Positions 18,705 through 60,217 of a stretch of 64,000 bases of DNA are shown here, in pieces. The stretch is from Novosphingobium sp. Chol11. GTDB taxonomy: Bacteria > Pseudomonadota > Alphaproteobacteria > Sphingomonadales > Sphingomonadaceae. The stretch is from assembly GCF_945870625.1 (NCBI RefSeq), contig NZ_CAMBTS010000002.1, positions 18,379-82,378 of the forward strand. The letters run 5' to 3'. A program made the translations under genes and the position numbers. Every line of letters starts with the position of its first letter. Within the stretch, counting starts at the first letter, position 1. A model generated the notes under the pieces. The model did no database searches and was not told the origin of the DNA. It worked only from the letters and a program-made list of their open reading frames with translations.

Positions 18705-19733
18705 ATGGACTCCAACGCACTCTACGCAACATTGCCGGATCTGAGCGCGCGGATCATGTGCAATGCGCTGGTCAACGAGTTCAAGGTCGATTGGGAAACG
18801 TTCTGCCGCAACAGCCAGATCCGGCCTGTTCGCTTTGACGAACAGGCGCGCGATTTGCTCGCGCAGGAAGAAATGCTGCTCCAGCACGCTTTCGCCGATT
18901 GCACCGCAAACACACGGAACATCTGGTTCGACGTCGGTTTGCGCTACCGGGCCATCAAGTATGGCGAGCTTGGCCTCGCCATGATGACCGCGCGGACGCT
19001 GGGCGAGGCGCTGGAGATCGCCTGCCGCTGCCAATCGCTTACGTATTCGTTGATCAACTATCGCTTTGCCTCTGCGCCGAACGGGGCCTGCGCGTTGATC
19101 GGCAGCTGCGGCAAACTTTCCGAGCAACTGCACGATTTCACCCATTACCGCGATCTTGGCGCGATCCGCACCTTGATTGCCGATCTGATGGGTGGGGACC
19201 TGCCGCTTGAACGCGTCACCCTAACCACACCGCCGCCGCCAAACTGGTCGCGGCTGCGCCAGCATTTTTCCTGTCCGGTCGAATTCAATGCCGACCAGAC
19301 GCAGTGGCTGTTCCGGCCGGGCGCCGCCAGCCTGCCGCTGCCACTCGCGGATAGCGATCTCCTGATGCTTTATAGCTCACGCTGCGACTCCATGCTCAAG
19401 CGCGCGCAAGCCGACTCCACGATCAAGGCCCGGCTGGCGGCCCAGCTCAGCCGCACCAATGGCGAATTCCTGACTGCAGGCGAAGCTGCGCGCCTGCTCG
19501 CGCTTTCCGAGCGGACGCTGCACCGGCGGCTGGCCGAAGAAGGAACGCGGTTTTCGGCGATGGTGGACGAGGCACGCTATGGCCGCGCGCGCGAACTGCT
19601 GATGGATCGGCGCATGACGATCGAGGGGATTGCCTTCGCGGTCGGCTTTGCCGAACCATCGAGTTTCTCGCGCGCATTCAAACGGTGGTCGGGGATGGGC
19701 GCGCTGGAATATCGGCGGCAACGTCAGGGTTAG
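18705..19733 (+). CDS. AraC-family transcriptional regulator (arabinose-binding-domain subtype)
   Basis: 342 residues. The N-terminal ~200 residues fit the AraC 'arabinose-binding' effector domain found in OruR- and MmsR-like regulators. The C-terminal helix-turn-helix contains TAGEAARLLALSERTLHRRL and GIAFAVGFAEPSSFSRAFKR, the AraC signature. The start at 18705 is preferred to the track's 18636 because of the preceding AGAGGGA. Likely targets are the adjacent esterase, TonB receptor and BVMO genes (inference from position). Confidence 0.9.
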   Translation: MDSNALYATLPDLSARIMCNALVNEFKVDWETFCRNSQIRPVRFDEQARDLLAQEEMLLQHAFADCTANTRNIWFDVGLRYRAIKYGELGLAMMTARTLGEALEIACRCQSLTYSLINYRFASAPNGACALIGSCGKLSEQLHDFTHYRDLGAIRTLIADLMGGDLPLERVTLTTPPPPNWSRLRQHFSCPVEFNADQTQWLFRPGAASLPLPLADSDLLMLYSSRCDSMLKRAQADSTIKARLAAQLSRTNGEFLTAGEAARLLALSERTLHRRLAEEGTRFSAMVDEARYGRARELLMDRRMTIEGIAFAVGFAEPSSFSRAFKRWSGMGALEYRRQRQG

Positions 19734-25510: not shown

Positions 25511-25996
25511 TCAGGGGAACGGTCCGTTCAAACGGACGACCATCAGATTGAGATACCCGGCGAAACTCACCCACAACAAATAAGGGAGGAGGAGCAGCGC
25601 GGCGACCTTTGATCGGCGCGAGGTGAGGATCACCAGCGCTGCAATCGACAACCACAAGCCCACTACCTCAACCAGCGCCCAATCCGGCCGGTGAAAACGG
25701 AAGAACAGGAAGCTCCACAGCAGATTGAGAAAGCCGTTCAGCGCGAACCATCCGATCAGCCATTCGCGCTCGCGCCAATCAGGGGTGGCGAGCCAGGCGT
25801 TGACCCCCGCGATCGCGATCAGCGCGAAAATGATCGTCCAGCCAATCGCATAAACGAAATCGGGCGGGGCCCACGCCGGTTGGGCGAGGCTGCGATACCA
25901 TGGACCGATTTCGGTGATCGTCGCGCCCATGATCGCGACCGCGAAGGCCACCAAGGCAGCGATCACAACGGGGAACAGCCATGCGCGGTCGGTCAT
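25511..25996 (-). CDS. tspO: TspO/MBR family tryptophan-rich sensory protein
   Basis: A 161-residue five-helix membrane protein. It has the TspO signatures PWYRSLAQPAWAPPDFVYAI and LNLLWSFLFFRFHRPDWALV, plus several conserved Trp. TspO binds porphyrins and, in Rhodobacter, negatively influences photosynthesis gene expression. It starts 5 bp after the stop of the bchP remnant, inside the bchG-pucC-bchP operon, consistent with a tetrapyrrole-related role. Confidence 0.93.
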   Translation of the reverse strand: MTDRAWLFPVVIAALVAFAVAIMGATITEIGPWYRSLAQPAWAPPDFVYAIGWTIIFALIAIAGVNAWLATPDWREREWLIGWFALNGFLNLLWSFLFFRFHRPDWALVEVVGLWLSIAALVILTSRRSKVAALLLLPYLLWVSFAGYLNLMVVRLNGPFP

Positions 25997-26000
25997 GGGT

Positions 26001-26252
26001 TCACCGCGCCGTCTGCAACACGTGGCGCATATCTTTGAAGAAGATGCGCAGATAGGCCATCGGGCGCGCGTAGACGAGCTTCTTGTTCATATCGGCGGGC
26101 CACAGCAGGTTCTGCACATCGCGGTTGTCGCACATGCACGGGATATTGACAGCTATATCCCACGGCCCGATCATCCGCGCCATCATCGAACGGCCGACGA
26201 CCACCCAATCGTAAACGGCAGGTTCGCCGACGCTCCGGCCAGCAAGGCTCAT
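26001..26252 (-). pseudogene. bchP: Internally deleted remnant of geranylgeranyl bacteriochlorophyll reductase (bchP)
   Basis: An 83-codon open frame. It begins at an ATG overlapping the pucC stop (ATGA) and reads EPAVYDWVVVG, like the FAD-motif start of BchP (YDVVVVGGGPAG). Instead of continuing with GGGPAG it goes on to RSMMARMIGPW, then DNRDVQNLLW, MNKKLVYARPMAYLRIFFKD, which I recognise as the BchP C-terminal tail (about 400 aa is normal). Roughly 300 central residues, including the FAD and substrate domains, are absent. The place in the order bchG-pucC-bchP matches intact PGCs. It cannot be catalytically functional; translation may survive to couple to tspO. Confidence 0.7.
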
Positions 26253-27628
26253 GCCGGTTCGCCCCCGAACGCCGCAGGCTCTGCAGGCCTTGCCGCGCCG
26301 CGCAGCACGAGCATCGCGGCAACGATGAACAAAAGGGCCTCGGCGCCGAATACCATCAGGAATGTGCCCGGCGTCGAGCCGGTGATCGTCCGCCCGACAT
26401 CGACGCCCACCGCGCCGACCAGCCCGCCAAACCCGAACGCCATCGCTTGCGCCGCACCCCAGACCCCCATGCGGATGCCCTCGCGCCCGCCATCTGCGCT
26501 GGCCAGTGCCATCATCTGGCCGATCGCGGCGACAGCGAACACCCCGTTGGCAAAGCCGAGCACCGCGACATTGGCAGCCAGCGGCCAGCCCGGACCGATT
26601 ACCGCCGCCAGCGCCAGCCCGGCCAGCGCGATGGCCGACCCGGCACACCCGCCCACGATCCAGCGCGCCAATCCCGCCGAGCCCCGCCCGGCGAATGCTC
26701 CGCCGCCGATCCCGACGAGGATCATCCCCACCAGTACGCCCCCGTTCTGGACACCCGACAGCTTGGTCGATTGTCCCGGTGTAAACCCGAACAGCAGGCC
26801 GGAAAACGGTTCAAGGATGAGGTCCTGCATCGCATAGGCAAACATCGACAGAAACACGAACAGGGTGAACCGCCGCGCGGCGGTGTCGGCCCACATCATT
26901 TTCAAGGCAACGCCAAATGCCTGCGCACTTCGCGCATCGGCAGAGGGCTTGGCTGCTATCAGCGGCGGCGCACCTTCAACGCCCCATATCGCCAGCAGCG
27001 CGACCACAAAGGCCCCGCCAGCGACACCTTGCGCGACCATCGTGAGACGGGCCAGCGAAAATGGGTCGATCATCGATCCAGCGACACCGGCCGTCACGAC
27101 AATGCCGGCCACCATCATGATCCACGTGATCGATGCCGCCGCCGCACGCCGCCCGGGCGCGACGCGCGTTGCCAGCAAGGCCAGCAGCGATGTGCCCGCT
27201 GCGCCGACGCCTGCGCCGATCAGCGTGAACGCGAGGATCGCGAGCGCATAGCCCCACGCGGCAGATCCATCCGGCACGCGGGCAGCGAGAAGCCCCAGCG
27301 CCCGAACGGCCAGCACCGCGCCCAGCGCCAGCGTGCCCATGCCAAACACGATCCACGGGGTGCGCCGCTGGCCGCGGTCCGATCCGTGGCCCCATGCCGG
27401 ACGCGACAGTTGCACGGCATAATGCCAGGCGACAAGGCCGGCCGGTAGCGCCGCAGGGAGGGCATATTCGACGACCATCACGCGGTTGAGCAGCGACGTG
27501 GTAAGCATCACAATCGCGCCGATCGCGCTCTGCACCAGCCCGAGGCGGACAATGCCGAGCCAGCCGAGCCCGTTTTCGTTCGGCCCGTTTTGAAGCGGCC
27601 CTTTCCCGCCCAGCGGCGCGGTGGTCAT
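26249..27628 (-). CDS. pucC: BCD-family MFS transporter PucC/Bch2-like
   Basis: A 459-residue, 12-helix MFS-type membrane protein of the bacteriochlorophyll-delivery family. It has LTTSLLNRVMVVEYALPA, GHGSDRGQRRTPWIVFGMG and LILEPFSGLLFGFTPGQSTK, all paralogous to LhaA encoded later in this window. It is thought to aid bacteriochlorophyll delivery or antenna assembly. The ATG at 27628 overlaps the bchG stop; the track start at 27709 is rejected. Confidence 0.9.
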   Translation of the reverse strand: MTTAPLGGKGPLQNGPNENGLGWLGIVRLGLVQSAIGAIVMLTTSLLNRVMVVEYALPAALPAGLVAWHYAVQLSRPAWGHGSDRGQRRTPWIVFGMGTLALGAVLAVRALGLLAARVPDGSAAWGYALAILAFTLIGAGVGAAGTSLLALLATRVAPGRRAAAASITWIMMVAGIVVTAGVAGSMIDPFSLARLTMVAQGVAGGAFVVALLAIWGVEGAPPLIAAKPSADARSAQAFGVALKMMWADTAARRFTLFVFLSMFAYAMQDLILEPFSGLLFGFTPGQSTKLSGVQNGGVLVGMILVGIGGGAFAGRGSAGLARWIVGGCAGSAIALAGLALAAVIGPGWPLAANVAVLGFANGVFAVAAIGQMMALASADGGREGIRMGVWGAAQAMAFGFGGLVGAVGVDVGRTITGSTPGTFLMVFGAEALLFIVAAMLVLRGAARPAEPAAFGGEPA

Positions 27629-28533
27629 AGCCCCGCCACCCCGCCAAGCCCGAAGGCCGAGGCGAGCATGCCCAGCACATAAAGCGTGGTGCCCGTGGCA
27701 TTGTACCAAGGTGTATGTGCGCGCGGATCGCTGAGCAGGCGGTTCATCAGCCCCAATTGCACCAGCAGCAGGACGCCGACGATGCCGCCAACCAAGGCAT
27801 GCCCCCAGCTGAGCAGGAGCGCCACGACCACGATCTGCGGCACGGCCATCACCACGCAGGCAATCCGCGCCGCCGGGCCCACGCCGAGTGTCGCGGGCAG
27901 CGAGCGGATGCCCATCGCGCGGTCGCCTTCGACCGCCTTGAAATCATTGAGCGTCATGATTCCAAAAGCACCCGCCGAATAGAGCGCGAGGATCGCCAGC
28001 ACCTGCGGCGGGGGCAGCGCGCCCGCCATCACGCTCGCGCCGGTAAACCAGGTCAATCCTTCATAGGTCAGCGCGACCGAGGCCGGTCCCCACACGCCGC
28101 TCATTTTGAGGCGGAAAGGCGGCGCGCTATAGGCCCAGGCGAAAAACAGCGCCACGATCGTCGCGGCAAACACCCAGAACCCCATGAAGGCGGCCGCAAC
28201 CAGCCCGCAGGCGGAGCCGATGAGCGCGATCCGCAATCCCCAGGTTCCCGCGATCCGGCCCGAGGGGATCGGGCGGTTCGGCTCGTTGATCGCATCGACA
28301 TGGCGATCAAACCAGTCATTGACTGCCTGGCTCGTTCCGCAAACCAGCGGCCCTACCAGCAAAATGCCCGCGATAAGGAACTGCCAGCGGCTGGAAATGG
28401 AGACGCCCGACGACACCACACCGCACATGAACGCCCAGATCGGCGGAAACCAGGTGATCGGCTTCAGCAGCTCGAGGATGTCCCGGGGGGCGGGAATTGA
28501 TGTCGCGAATCCCGGGGTTTTTGCAGTTTCCAT
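27625..28533 (-). CDS. bchG: Bacteriochlorophyll synthase (geranylgeranyl/phytyl transferase) BchG
   Basis: A UbiA-superfamily prenyltransferase of 302 residues with about nine membrane helices. It attaches the isoprenoid tail to bacteriochlorophyllide. The first Asp-rich motif is VNDWFDRHVDAINEPNRP and the second is LNDFKAVEGDRAMGIRSLP. I choose the ATG at 28533 because the track start at 28593 would place a PpsR-like operator (28564-28581) inside the gene. No clear Shine-Dalgarno precedes this ATG, so a leaderless transcript is possible. Confidence 0.93.
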   Translation of the reverse strand: METAKTPGFATSIPAPRDILELLKPITWFPPIWAFMCGVVSSGVSISSRWQFLIAGILLVGPLVCGTSQAVNDWFDRHVDAINEPNRPIPSGRIAGTWGLRIALIGSACGLVAAAFMGFWVFAATIVALFFAWAYSAPPFRLKMSGVWGPASVALTYEGLTWFTGASVMAGALPPPQVLAILALYSAGAFGIMTLNDFKAVEGDRAMGIRSLPATLGVGPAARIACVVMAVPQIVVVALLLSWGHALVGGIVGVLLLVQLGLMNRLLSDPRAHTPWYNATGTTLYVLGMLASAFGLGGVAGL

Positions 28534-28684: not shown

Positions 28685-30118
28685 CTAAACGTCGGACGAC
28701 ATCAGATTGCCAAGACCGTGGCGATGCAGCTTGGAATAGAGGCTCTGTCGGCTGACGCCGAGGATTTCCGCCGCCGAAGCCCGATTGTCGGAGGTATAGA
28801 CCAGCGCCGCCTCGATGCACAGGCGCTCGATCAGATCGGTACTTTCGCGCACGATATCCTTGAGCGACATCCGGCCCACCAGCTCGGTCAATTGCCCTAC
28901 CGAGCGCGGCACATCGCCTACGCTCTCGCCGCCATTTCTCTCGCGGCGGCCGACATCGCGAATGGTGAAGCCATAGCACTCACCATCCCCCATCGGCGCG
29001 GACACGCCCGAGACTTCGATGGAATCCTTCGATCCTGCTGCGCCGCGCAGGATGGTCGCGACATTGCGGACCGAGCCATGCTCGCGCAACTGCGCGATGA
29101 TCAGGTCAAGATCGATGCCCGGTCGCCCCAGCCACGTATCCAGCCGCGCGCCGACCACCCGGTCCATCGAGGGCATCTGCGTCATTTCAAGGAACGCGGC
29201 GTTCGCGCTCAGTACATTCAGATCGCTGCCGACGAGGACGAACGAATCGGGCATCCGCTCGATCACTTCGCCGAGCGTGGCATCCATCGCCTTTCCGCCG
29301 ACGGCTCCGCCGGCCACGTCGATCCGGACAATGAACAGCGCTTTGCGAGCCTGACGAAACAGGCGCGCCGAAATTCTCGCGTCACCGCGGCTATCGACCA
29401 GACGCAGTGCGATCGGAGCCAGATCATCGGCGGCTTCCGCAGCGCCGAGATAAGCGATCAGGTCATCGCGCTGCCCGTCGGCGACGATGGTCTGGACGGG
29501 GACACCGGCAAGTTCGCCCGGCATCGCATCCAGCAACCGATAAGCCGCCGGATTGGCCTCGCTGATCCGGCGGTCGTCGGCATCGACGATCAGCACGGGT
29601 TCGGAAACCACATCGAACAGCAGGCGGTAGCGGGTTTCTGTTTGCCGCAGCCGGATATAGTCGCGCTCGATTGCCTGCTGCGATTGGAGCAAGCGCTGCT
29701 GAAGTGCAGCAGTGGCGCGCATATCGCGCCCGATCGCGATGAGGCGGCCCCCATCGCCCAGCGCCATCATCAGATAGCGCACCGCGACATCGCCGCCCGC
29801 CGCGACATGGTTGACCTGCCGCCAGCGAGGCGCACCACCAGGTTTGGCCGCCTCGGTCAGCATGTCATTGATCTTCACCCGGCTTTCCACCGTGACTGTA
29901 TCGATCAAGGGCGTGCCCACCCAATCGGCAAAACCGTGCTTGGCGAGTTCGCCGTCCGAGACCGAGATATCGAGAACGTCGCCTTCAGGAGAAAGAATGA
30001 ACGCAACGTCCCCCACAGATGCCAGCATGTTGGCGGCCGCGCCCGCAGACAAGGCTCCCGTCATGCTGTCACCCGACGCAAATGGGGTCGTCCCAGAGGG
30101 AGCATTATGCATGTTCAT
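28685..30118 (-). CDS. ppsR: Photosynthesis regulator PpsR/CrtJ
   Basis: A 477-residue redox/light-responsive repressor of photosynthesis genes. It has tandem PAS domains (the central one with ETRYRLLFDVVSEPVLIVDA) and a C-terminal Fis-type helix-turn-helix NRASAAEILGVSRQSLYSKL. A Cys just before the HTH (LIERLCIEAAL) matches the redox-active Cys of CrtJ. A second Cys equivalent to the PAS-region Cys of Rhodobacter CrtJ is not seen. The start MNMHNAPSG (30118) lies 28 bp after ppaA. Its presumed operators occur at five places in this window. Confidence 0.93.
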   Translation of the reverse strand: MNMHNAPSGTTPFASGDSMTGALSAGAAANMLASVGDVAFILSPEGDVLDISVSDGELAKHGFADWVGTPLIDTVTVESRVKINDMLTEAAKPGGAPRWRQVNHVAAGGDVAVRYLMMALGDGGRLIAIGRDMRATAALQQRLLQSQQAIERDYIRLRQTETRYRLLFDVVSEPVLIVDADDRRISEANPAAYRLLDAMPGELAGVPVQTIVADGQRDDLIAYLGAAEAADDLAPIALRLVDSRGDARISARLFRQARKALFIVRIDVAGGAVGGKAMDATLGEVIERMPDSFVLVGSDLNVLSANAAFLEMTQMPSMDRVVGARLDTWLGRPGIDLDLIIAQLREHGSVRNVATILRGAAGSKDSIEVSGVSAPMGDGECYGFTIRDVGRRERNGGESVGDVPRSVGQLTELVGRMSLKDIVRESTDLIERLCIEAALVYTSDNRASAAEILGVSRQSLYSKLHRHGLGNLMSSDV

Positions 30119-30146
30119 TGCCGAGCGCCGCGCTCCACCTATCGTA

Positions 30147-31109
30147 TCAACTAACAGCCAAGGCTTCTCGTTCGCGCTTGCGAACAAGGGCCAAGGCAAC
30201 TTTCAAGGCAAGCTTTGCGTCAGAAGCCGTAGCATCCGCCCCGATTTTCGCCGCTAAATCAGGATCTGTGCAGAAGACCGGGCCGCCAACCATGATGCAA
30301 ACGCGCGAATTTCTGGACACATTCCGCAGTGCAACAATCAGCGAGCTAACTTTTTCGATATGGCAATCGCAGCTTACCGTCAATCCGATCAAGTCAAACC
30401 ATTCGCGCCTGACCCCCCTCAGAAGATCGGATGTCTCGGCGCTGGTCATGCGTTCGGTAATCCAGCCCTCACGGCGAAAGAGTTCGTCCATGACGACAGT
30501 GCCAAAGTTATGCTGGTCGCCCGGCATGGCGGCAAACAGCGCGCGGTGGCCGCCGGCCGCAAGCAATCGCTCCGACGGCGCGCGCGCCGCGATCTCGCGC
30601 ACCACTTCCTGCAAACGCCATAGCCCCATCGTTACGTCGATGAAGTCGCAGCGGTCACTTTCCCAATATTCGCCCAACAAGCGCGCCGCCGGCCCCAGCA
30701 AATCGACCATGACCGTATCGACGCCCATGCCCCGCGCGAGAACCGCCTCGACACTGGCCAGCAACGCATCGGCTTCGACTTCGAGCACCAATTCGGCAAG
30801 CGCCGCGACCTCGCCAATGCCGATCTCCGCAGCCGAGGGGCTGCGCGCGTCCCCGACATGCGCAATTACCAGGCGGGGGATGATCTCGTTTTCGATCAGT
30901 TTCGACAGCGACTTGTCGTGTTCCAAGGCCCCATCATGCGCAAAGGCTGCACCATGATCCGGGCTGTCATGATGGTTGACGGCGTCATGGGCCATGCTGG
31001 CGAACGCCAGAAACGCTTCGGAGCCTTGCGCCTCGTCGATCAATCTTTGCGTATGCCTCGCGCGACCAATTGATCCAGATTGTGAGCCTGAAGGAGCCAA
31101 TGATGCCAC
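30147..31109 (-). CDS. ppaA: PpaA/AerR family cobalamin-binding antirepressor
   Basis: Partner of PpsR/CrtJ that modulates it in a B12-dependent, light-sensitive way. The segment KLIENEIIPRLVIAHVGDAR and the helical region up to GLWRLQEVVREIA precede a B12-binding-like Rossmann domain containing LTVSCDCHIEKVSSLIVALR and VCIMVGGPVF. I start at the GTG of VASLAPSGS (31109), preceded by GGGGGG. Alternatives are the TTG at 31127 and the ATG at 30995, so the N-terminus is uncertain. It is encoded upstream of ppsR and divergent from bchF. Confidence 0.9.
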   Translation of the reverse strand: MASLAPSGSQSGSIGRARHTQRLIDEAQGSEAFLAFASMAHDAVNHHDSPDHGAAFAHDGALEHDKSLSKLIENEIIPRLVIAHVGDARSPSAAEIGIGEVAALAELVLEVEADALLASVEAVLARGMGVDTVMVDLLGPAARLLGEYWESDRCDFIDVTMGLWRLQEVVREIAARAPSERLLAAGGHRALFAAMPGDQHNFGTVVMDELFRREGWITERMTSAETSDLLRGVRREWFDLIGLTVSCDCHIEKVSSLIVALRNVSRNSRVCIMVGGPVFCTDPDLAAKIGADATASDAKLALKVALALVRKREREALAVS

Positions 31110-40061: not shown

Positions 40062-41485
40062 CCACGAGCCGCGTCCACGGATTCTGGAACAACGCAGGGC
40101 GGCGATTCCTGCCGTTTGCCGATGCCGCGACTACCGAGCTTCCGCTTGGTCAGTTGCTGCGGCTATCGCTGTTCCAGGTTTCGGTGGGCATGGCAGCGGT
40201 TTTGCTGACGGGGACGCTCAACCGGGTGATGATCGTCGAGTTGAACATGCCAGCCTCGCTCGTGGCCGTGATGGTCTCGCTGCCGCTGCTGTTTGCCCCG
40301 TTGCGCGCGCTGATCGGGTTCAAATCCGACAATCATGTCTCGCTGCTGGGCTGGAAGCGGGTGCCCTACATCTGGTTCGGCACGCTGTTCCAGTTTGGCG
40401 GATTTGCCATTCTGCCGTTCGCGCTGCTGGTGATGACGGGGGGCGGCCACGGCCCTGCGATCTTCGGCCAGATTGGCGCGGCGATCGCCTTCCTGCTGAT
40501 CGGCGCAGGCATGCATACCACCCAGACCGCCGGGCTCGCGCTGGCGACCGACCTTGCACCCGAACACGCCCGGCCCCGCGTCGTGGCGCTGCTTTATGTC
40601 ATGCTGCTGGTCGGCACAGCGGCAAGCGCCATCATCATCAGCCAGATTCTTGCCGACTTCACCGCAACCAAGCTGGTGCAGGTGGTGCAAGGGGCGGGCG
40701 CGCTGACGATGATCCTCAACGTTATCGCGCTGTGGAAGCAGGAACCCCGCAACGCCGCAACGACTGCGGCGCGGCCGGATCGGGCGCCGTTCAGCGCAGT
40801 CTGGGCCAGCTTCATCGCCCAGCCCAAGACCATGCGGCTGTTGGTTGCGGTCGGGCTGGGCGCGGCGGCCTTCAGCATGCAGGATGTCCTGCTGGAGCCA
40901 TATGGCGGCCAGATTCTGCACATGTCCGTCGGCGCGACCACATCGCTCACCGCCTTGTGGGCGATAGGCATGCTGGCCGGCTTTGCGATCGCTGCGCGCG
41001 AGCTGGCGGCAGGCGCCGATGCGCATCGCCTTGCCGGCTATGGCGCGGTTGCCGGCATCGCGGCCTTCGCGCTGGTGATCTTTGCCGCCCCATCGGAGCA
41101 GGCCGGTTTCCTTTACTTGGGCGCATCGCTCATCGGCCTCGGCGCGGGGCTGTTCTCGGTCGGCACGTTGACCGCCGCCATGGCGCTATCGCGCGAAGGC
41201 AACAACGGCCTGGCGCTCGGCGCATGGGGCGCGGTCCAGGCGACAAGCGCCGGCCTTGCCATCGCTATCGGTGCCTTTGCGCGCGATGCGATTTCATCCG
41301 CGGCAATCGCCAACGACCTGGGGCCCACTCTGGCCGGACCGGCAACCGGTTATGGATTTGTCTATTGTTCTGAAATTACGTTACTTTTCGCAACCATCGT
41401 GGCGTTGGGGCCTTTGGTGCGTGGGCGTGCGGCTGGCCAAGCCATATCGCCCTCTCGCTTTGGTCTCAGCGAGTTTCCAACCTGA
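40058..41485 (+). CDS. lhaA: BCD-family MFS transporter LhaA, LH1 assembly factor
   Basis: A 475-residue 12-helix membrane protein paralogous to PucC. It has LLTGTLNRVMIVELNMPASL, LGWKRVPYIWFGTLFQFG and QDVLLEPYGGQILHMSVGAT. LhaA supports assembly of the LH1 antenna, probably by handling bacteriochlorophyll. It is encoded between bchM and puhA as in Rhodobacter. Confidence 0.93.
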   Translation: MTTSRVHGFWNNAGRRFLPFADAATTELPLGQLLRLSLFQVSVGMAAVLLTGTLNRVMIVELNMPASLVAVMVSLPLLFAPLRALIGFKSDNHVSLLGWKRVPYIWFGTLFQFGGFAILPFALLVMTGGGHGPAIFGQIGAAIAFLLIGAGMHTTQTAGLALATDLAPEHARPRVVALLYVMLLVGTAASAIIISQILADFTATKLVQVVQGAGALTMILNVIALWKQEPRNAATTAARPDRAPFSAVWASFIAQPKTMRLLVAVGLGAAAFSMQDVLLEPYGGQILHMSVGATTSLTALWAIGMLAGFAIAARELAAGADAHRLAGYGAVAGIAAFALVIFAAPSEQAGFLYLGASLIGLGAGLFSVGTLTAAMALSREGNNGLALGAWGAVQATSAGLAIAIGAFARDAISSAAIANDLGPTLAGPATGYGFVYCSEITLLFATIVALGPLVRGRAAGQAISPSRFGLSEFPT

Positions 41486-47007: not shown

Positions 47008-47050
47008 TGTCAACACGGCTTAACATAGTGCTTGTCAAAAGATTTTGACA
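47008..47050 (+). promoter_or_regulatory. Two tandem PpsR/CrtJ operators upstream of crtD (copy 1)
   Basis: TGTCAACACGGCTTAACA (47008-47025) and TGTCAAAAGATTTTGACA (47033-47050) both match TGT-N12-ACA exactly, separated by 7 bp. The second ends in TTGACA, a consensus -35 box, 47 bp upstream of the crtD ATG. Confidence 0.8.
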
Positions 47051-60199: not shown

Positions 60200-60217
60200 T
60201 GTCCACTTTTGTGGACA
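60200..60217. promoter_or_regulatory. PpsR/CrtJ operator between divergent crtF and crtD (copy 2)
   Basis: TGTCCACTTTTGTGGACA is an exact TGT-N12-ACA palindrome. It lies 1 bp from the crtF start codon and 37 bp upstream of the crtD2 ATG, so it can repress both divergent genes. Confidence 0.75.

Follow-up and report, generated by a model that had tools for sequence, protein, structure and literature searches.

A Decaying bchP Remnant in the Photosynthesis Cluster of Novosphingobium sp. Chol11 and Its Probable Displacement by a Foreign bchP Outside the Cluster

Results

The bchP Slot in the Window and in Related Genomes

The window, a stretch of 64,000 nucleotides from Novosphingobium sp. Chol11, is part of contig C2 of a 3.2 Mb draft genome (179 contigs, 93.8% complete, 2.2% contamination) and contains a photosynthesis gene cluster in which the place between pucC and tspO is occupied by a short open frame, hereafter the stub, as shown in Table 1. 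The start ATG of the stub shares an ATGA with the stop codon of pucC, and ACCC separates its TGA from the ATG of tspO. A preliminary description of this DNA had reported an 83-codon frame in the bchP slot with BchP-like ends, the ATGA coupling and the 4-nt gap to tspO, all of which is borne out by the coordinates and by a match to the BchP/ChlP profile TIGR02023. A comparison with close relatives, proposed in the same description, revealed a full-length bchP between pucC and tspO in 8/8 relatives examined. A tree built from BchG, PucC and TspO together places G160, G196, G201, G115 and G198 as the sister group of the window genome, and BchP matches with E<=1e-50 were observed in 39 of the 196 genomes of the genus (this one counted), with 38 exceeding the family cut-off. 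A plasmid search returned Novosphingobium capsulatum as top match, where chlG, a BCD-family transporter (pucC), geranylgeranyl diphosphate reductase and TspO are annotated; it bears out the usual arrangement of genes and the affinity to Novosphingobium and adds nothing further.

Some irregular loci were also encountered. The bchP of one draft of the genus that is 81% complete (G020:C34:414-1569) is split into two overlapping frames, by a frameshift or a sequencing error; in another genome of the genus bchG/pucC lie at the end of a contig (G026:C142) and no strong BchP match was detected in the genome, where bchP may simply have escaped assembly, as that contig breaks off within the operon. At 40130-41374 the window encodes another PucC-like transporter, only distantly similar (32% identity to Sandarakinorhabdus PucC) and presumably an lhaA/pucC-type paralogue of the cluster.

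Table 1. Positions of the stub, its parts and the surrounding features in the window.
Feature	Position	Strand	Description	Basis
tspO	25511..25996	-	intact, 4 nt 3' of the stub	
bchP stub	26001..26252	-	remnant of native bchP, 83 codons, open frame	profile and alignment
Stub piece 3	26004..26138	-	residues 39/40-83, native BchP C-terminus	TIGR02023 347-386; identity to relatives
Deletion junction 2	26136..26139	.	~272 codons lost	alignment
Stub piece 2	26139..26192	-	residues 21-38, internal BchP segment (relatives: RVxxARMIxPSDxxVDMP)	alignment
Deletion junction 1	26192..26193	.	~52 codons lost	in-phase repeats in relatives
Stub piece 1	26193..26219	-	residues 12-20 AVYDWVVVG, native N-terminus to first G of the FAD motif	alignment to bchP of G198/G201/G160
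pucC	26249..27628	-	BCD-family MFS transporter, intact, ATGA overlap with stub, sole close pucC in the genome	
bchG	27625..28533	-	intact	
ppsR-like gene	28685..30199	-	putative regulator gene of the cluster	named by translation and position, not by profile
PpsR-type box	60200..60217	+	TGTCCACTTTTGTGGACA	15/18 bases as in the box upstream of C22 bchP (post hoc reference)

Structure of the Stub

Codon-level alignment resolved the stub into three pieces of native bchP joined in one frame, with two deletions between them that measure 52 and 272 codons against the relative G201. The FAD-binding GxGxxG motif is left without completion, as VVVG is followed directly by the first deletion and the remainder of GGGPAG is gone, and nearly all of the catalytic sequence is missing with it. 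The second piece represents 18 codons that survived between the deletions (RSMMARMIGPWDIAVNIP, aligned to RVTAARMIGPSDNAVDMP of G201), and residues 1-11 (MSLAGRSVGEP), ahead of the first piece, exhibit no clear BchP likeness. The preliminary description had read the locus as an in-frame internal loss of bchP in an otherwise intact operon; the loss within bchG-pucC-(bchP)-tspO stands, and the single deletion gives way to two.

The third piece carries most of the recognizable similarity. Residues 39-78 match positions 347-386 of TIGR02023 (E=5.9e-6, 25.5 bits; NCBIfam profile search), without reaching the curated cut-off of 343.3 bits over ~388 positions, and no other family was matched by the stub in the NCBIfam and Pfam search, so that the profile comparison suggested earlier supports a BchP C-terminal end. 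Elsewhere, residues 39-82 are most similar (80% identity) to the C-terminal end of the full-length BchP of a close relative, and identities of the C-terminal piece to the nearest relatives range between 70 and 80%. No stub frame of similar length was found in the 195 other genomes of the genus, where the matches fall in longer bchP frames; a small-protein family would be expected to have homologues of similar length in other genomes, and the stub does not appear to represent one.

The two junctions differ in their edges. At junction 1, the relatives have TCGTCGGC or near-identical repeats on both sides, in matching codon phase, so that excision from one short repeat to the other leaves the reading frame intact without selection. 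Little repeat was observed at junction 2. If both deletions were random, the frame would survive the two in about 1 in 9 cases.

Evolutionary Constraint on the Stub

Eight residues of the stub are never found in 117 full-length BchPs over the 61 columns compared. In a leave-one-out control the maximum was four unseen residues for any full-length BchP, with none in 86/117. Three of the 17 near-invariant columns are broken in the stub (D to N, Y to D, L to V). The codon model estimated omega on the terminal branch leading to the window genome (G000) at ~0.05 for the C-terminal piece and ~0.08 for pieces 2 and 3 together, with a background of 0.04-0.05, and the test for relaxation on the stub under this model gave no significant result (2dlnL 3.05 at best, with few codons and a long branch). 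Under a two-phase model, the part of the branch spent under neutrality was estimated at 0-7.5% for pieces 2 and 3. The low branch-wide dN/dS fits either a loss that is young compared with the species split or some residual constraint, and the count of unseen residues gives the clearer signal of decay. Taking these sequence comparisons together, we read the stub as a young, decaying pseudogene and not as a conserved mini-protein.

An Intact bchP of Foreign Ancestry on Contig C22

The only full-length BchP of the genome is encoded at C22:23983-25230 (-), between motB (flagellar) on one side and a VOC-family gene on the other, and scores 461.5 bits over TIGR02023 positions 2-386, which makes it a full member of the BchP family by the curated cut-off; it is a putative reductase of the geranylgeranyl tail. 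Its protein is 86% identical in amino acids to that of Sandarakinorhabdus, a freshwater bacterium of a different family from the window organism, and at most ~64% identical to those of genera outside that group; on a tree of 119 rows it groups with Sandarakinorhabdus (SH-aLRT 99), far from the native Novosphingobium clades. The alignment of the gene to its donors is gapless (84-85% identity), with dN/dS of 0.12-0.16. The preliminary description had proposed a search of the remaining genome for a full-length BchP and had offered a distant reductase as a possible replacement; the search succeeded, and the apparent replacement is an ordinary BchP from a Sandarakinorhabdus-like donor at an unlinked site.

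The edges of the foreign segment are sharp. DNA similarity to Sandarakinorhabdus (82%, blastn) is confined to ~1.46 kb (L005:7976-9439, corresponding to C22:23975-25438). The left flank, 8 kb of flagellar genes, has its best matches among the genomes sampled in members of the genus (69-80%), the right flank is matched by 196/196 genus genomes (best 75-79%), and against Sandarakinorhabdus both flanks yield short pieces, mostly of 65-71%. The foreign DNA thus appears limited to the insert, with the bchP set in DNA of host type. In the Sandarakinorhabdus cluster the order is pucC then bchP, and upstream of the C22 bchP lie ~200 nt of the donor pucC 3' end, which, being frameshifted and with indels (~61% identity), is dead. 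Among donor species a comparable distance apart, the pucC tail is itself more variable than bchP (68-75%), and decay after the transfer therefore accounts for only part of the divergence of this scrap. The motB and VOC blocks lie on separate contigs, not adjacent, in the relatives checked. Several synteny breaks against relatives were observed along C22 (L005 near 7.9-9.5, 14.3 and 16.4 kb), and the foreign bchP is situated at one of them, between the flagellar and VOC blocks.

PpsR-Type Boxes

TGT-N12-ACA is the target pattern of CrtJ/PpsR. The term is present in the literature (PMC5362033). Such a box was detected at L005:9273-9290, 42-59 nt upstream of the start of the C22 bchP, and its sequence is without counterpart in the donors. 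It is the single match within 3 mismatches to the window box at 60200, a reference picked post hoc from seven, and 200 shuffles gave 0 matches. By chance the bare pattern would turn up 0.86 times per 18 kb, and therefore only the position of the box on C22 is suggestive. A scan for sigma-70 promoters and terminators upstream of the C22 bchP found nothing. The C22 bchP is probably under host PpsR control through this putative box. Within the window, TGT-N12-ACA boxes were observed at 18827, 47008-47050, 59050 and 60200, with one tandem pair (TGTCAACACGGCTTAACA, TGTCAAAAGATTTTGACA); these are probable PpsR sites of the photosynthesis cluster, and their total is not above chance.

Discussion

The combined observations are best explained by xenologous displacement of bchP, in which a foreign copy was gained outside the cluster and the native gene then decayed, a reading to which we assign a probability of roughly 0.85. 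The features of such an event appear in both genes: the replacement branches with a distant donor and away from the relatives of the host, and the native copy is non-functional. A ~1.46-kb piece of a Sandarakinorhabdus-like photosynthesis cluster, comprising the pucC 3' end and the whole bchP, would have been captured next to motB, after which the foreign bchP stayed intact and probably gained host PpsR control via the box, and the pucC scrap decayed. The native bchP in the cluster may have become redundant once BchP was supplied from C22, and would have lost its FAD and catalytic parts through two or more deletions, of which one fell between short in-phase repeats. The leftover pseudogene would then keep its frame by chance, with pucC and tspO undisturbed. 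We infer that the foreign gene works and is regulated by PpsR, and that its acquisition may have come before the loss. Against displacement are counted the draft state of the genome (179 contigs), the low dN/dS of the stub without significant relaxation, and the separation of the motB and VOC blocks in relatives.

As the BchP of C22 is plainly foreign, contamination was the source considered first, and it was largely discarded in view of the flanks and the pucC remnant. Under this alternative, which we judge improbable, the C22 bchP would come from a co-occurring Sandarakinorhabdus through contamination or a chimeric contig, and the window organism would lack BchP and carry geranylgeranyl tails. 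The number of contigs, the estimated 2.2% contamination and the separate contigs of motB and the VOC gene in relatives could be taken in its favour, but on this contig the flanks on either side match the window genus and enclose a foreign part of merely 1.46 kb, and the further synteny breaks along C22 mean that the break at bchP is not special. A true Sandarakinorhabdus piece would also carry intact pucC and tspO, whereas here pucC is a frameshifted scrap; neither a Sandarakinorhabdus-like pucC nor a second pufM was found in the genome, where one pufM, its pufL and one close pucC are present, all on C2, and a second phototroph is not visible in the assembly. An assembly error in C2, by which an intact native bchP was collapsed by the assembler, is scarcely credible even for a draft genome: such a collapse would not give two separate in-frame junctions together with point changes at conserved sites, and the BchP-profile search of the genome found no trace of the missing native-type middle.

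A retained 83-residue product, which the preliminary description had offered as a mini-protein with a new role, is now strongly disfavoured. Such a product might be a membrane or partner-binding piece of BchP, for example a BchG-binding peptide working with the foreign BchP, or a coupling ORF aiding the translation of tspO, with selection having kept frame and coupling. Two frame-preserving deletions without a stop codon, the retained ATGA and 4-nt spacing, and the low branch-wide dN/dS of the C-terminal part are what this alternative would predict. Against it, the stub is unique among the 196 genus genomes, its unprecedented residues are twice the maximum of any full-length BchP and are accompanied by broken near-invariant columns, the repeats at junction 1 keep the frame without selection, and a low dN/dS can reflect the time before the deletions, given the small neutral share of the branch.

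Displacement also alters the expected pigment. The preliminary description had predicted a geranylgeranyl tail in the absence of another bchP; with an intact bchP elsewhere in the genome, there is no longer ground for this prediction, and the bacteriochlorophyll tails are predicted to stay phytylated. The case warns against concluding, from the lack of bchP in a cluster alone, that the pigments carry geranylgeranyl. Accounts of photosynthesis clusters usually treat them as transferred or lost whole or in operons, and here one pigment gene appears to have been swapped across families, leaving a well-preserved intermediate of a one-gene replacement, in which the old gene persists as a stub and the new copy lies outside the cluster with its own apparent photosynthesis control box.

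No bchP transfer in Novosphingobium, nor an equivalent case, was found in the literature searched; the event would be a one-gene swap caught midway, of a kind already known. Compared with BchP/ChlP (TIGR02023) and the native bchG-pucC-bchP-tspO operon, the stub is alike in its slot and in its N-terminal, internal and C-terminal pieces, and differs in lacking the FAD motif and most of the catalytic sequence, with the intact copy outside the cluster by motB. Natural changes of bchP in purple phototrophs include Rhodospirillum rubrum, which has GG-BChl a and whose BchP acts only on bacteriopheophytin, and Halorhodospira halochloris, with an insertion in bchP, and purple bacteria with GG-BChl a can grow, more slowly (PMC9066304); those variants change the chemistry of the tail, whereas here phytyl is expected to be kept. 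Horizontal operon transfer of photosynthesis clusters in Rhodobacteraceae (PMC6052148) resembles the present case as a horizontal move of photosynthesis genes, although here a single gene and a neighbouring scrap, not a cluster or operon, would have moved. Xenologous gene displacement is alike in that a foreign homologue is present and the native homologue reduced to a remnant; the present example differs in that the replacement lies outside the cluster with its own putative PpsR box, and a frame-keeping stub still marks the old gene.
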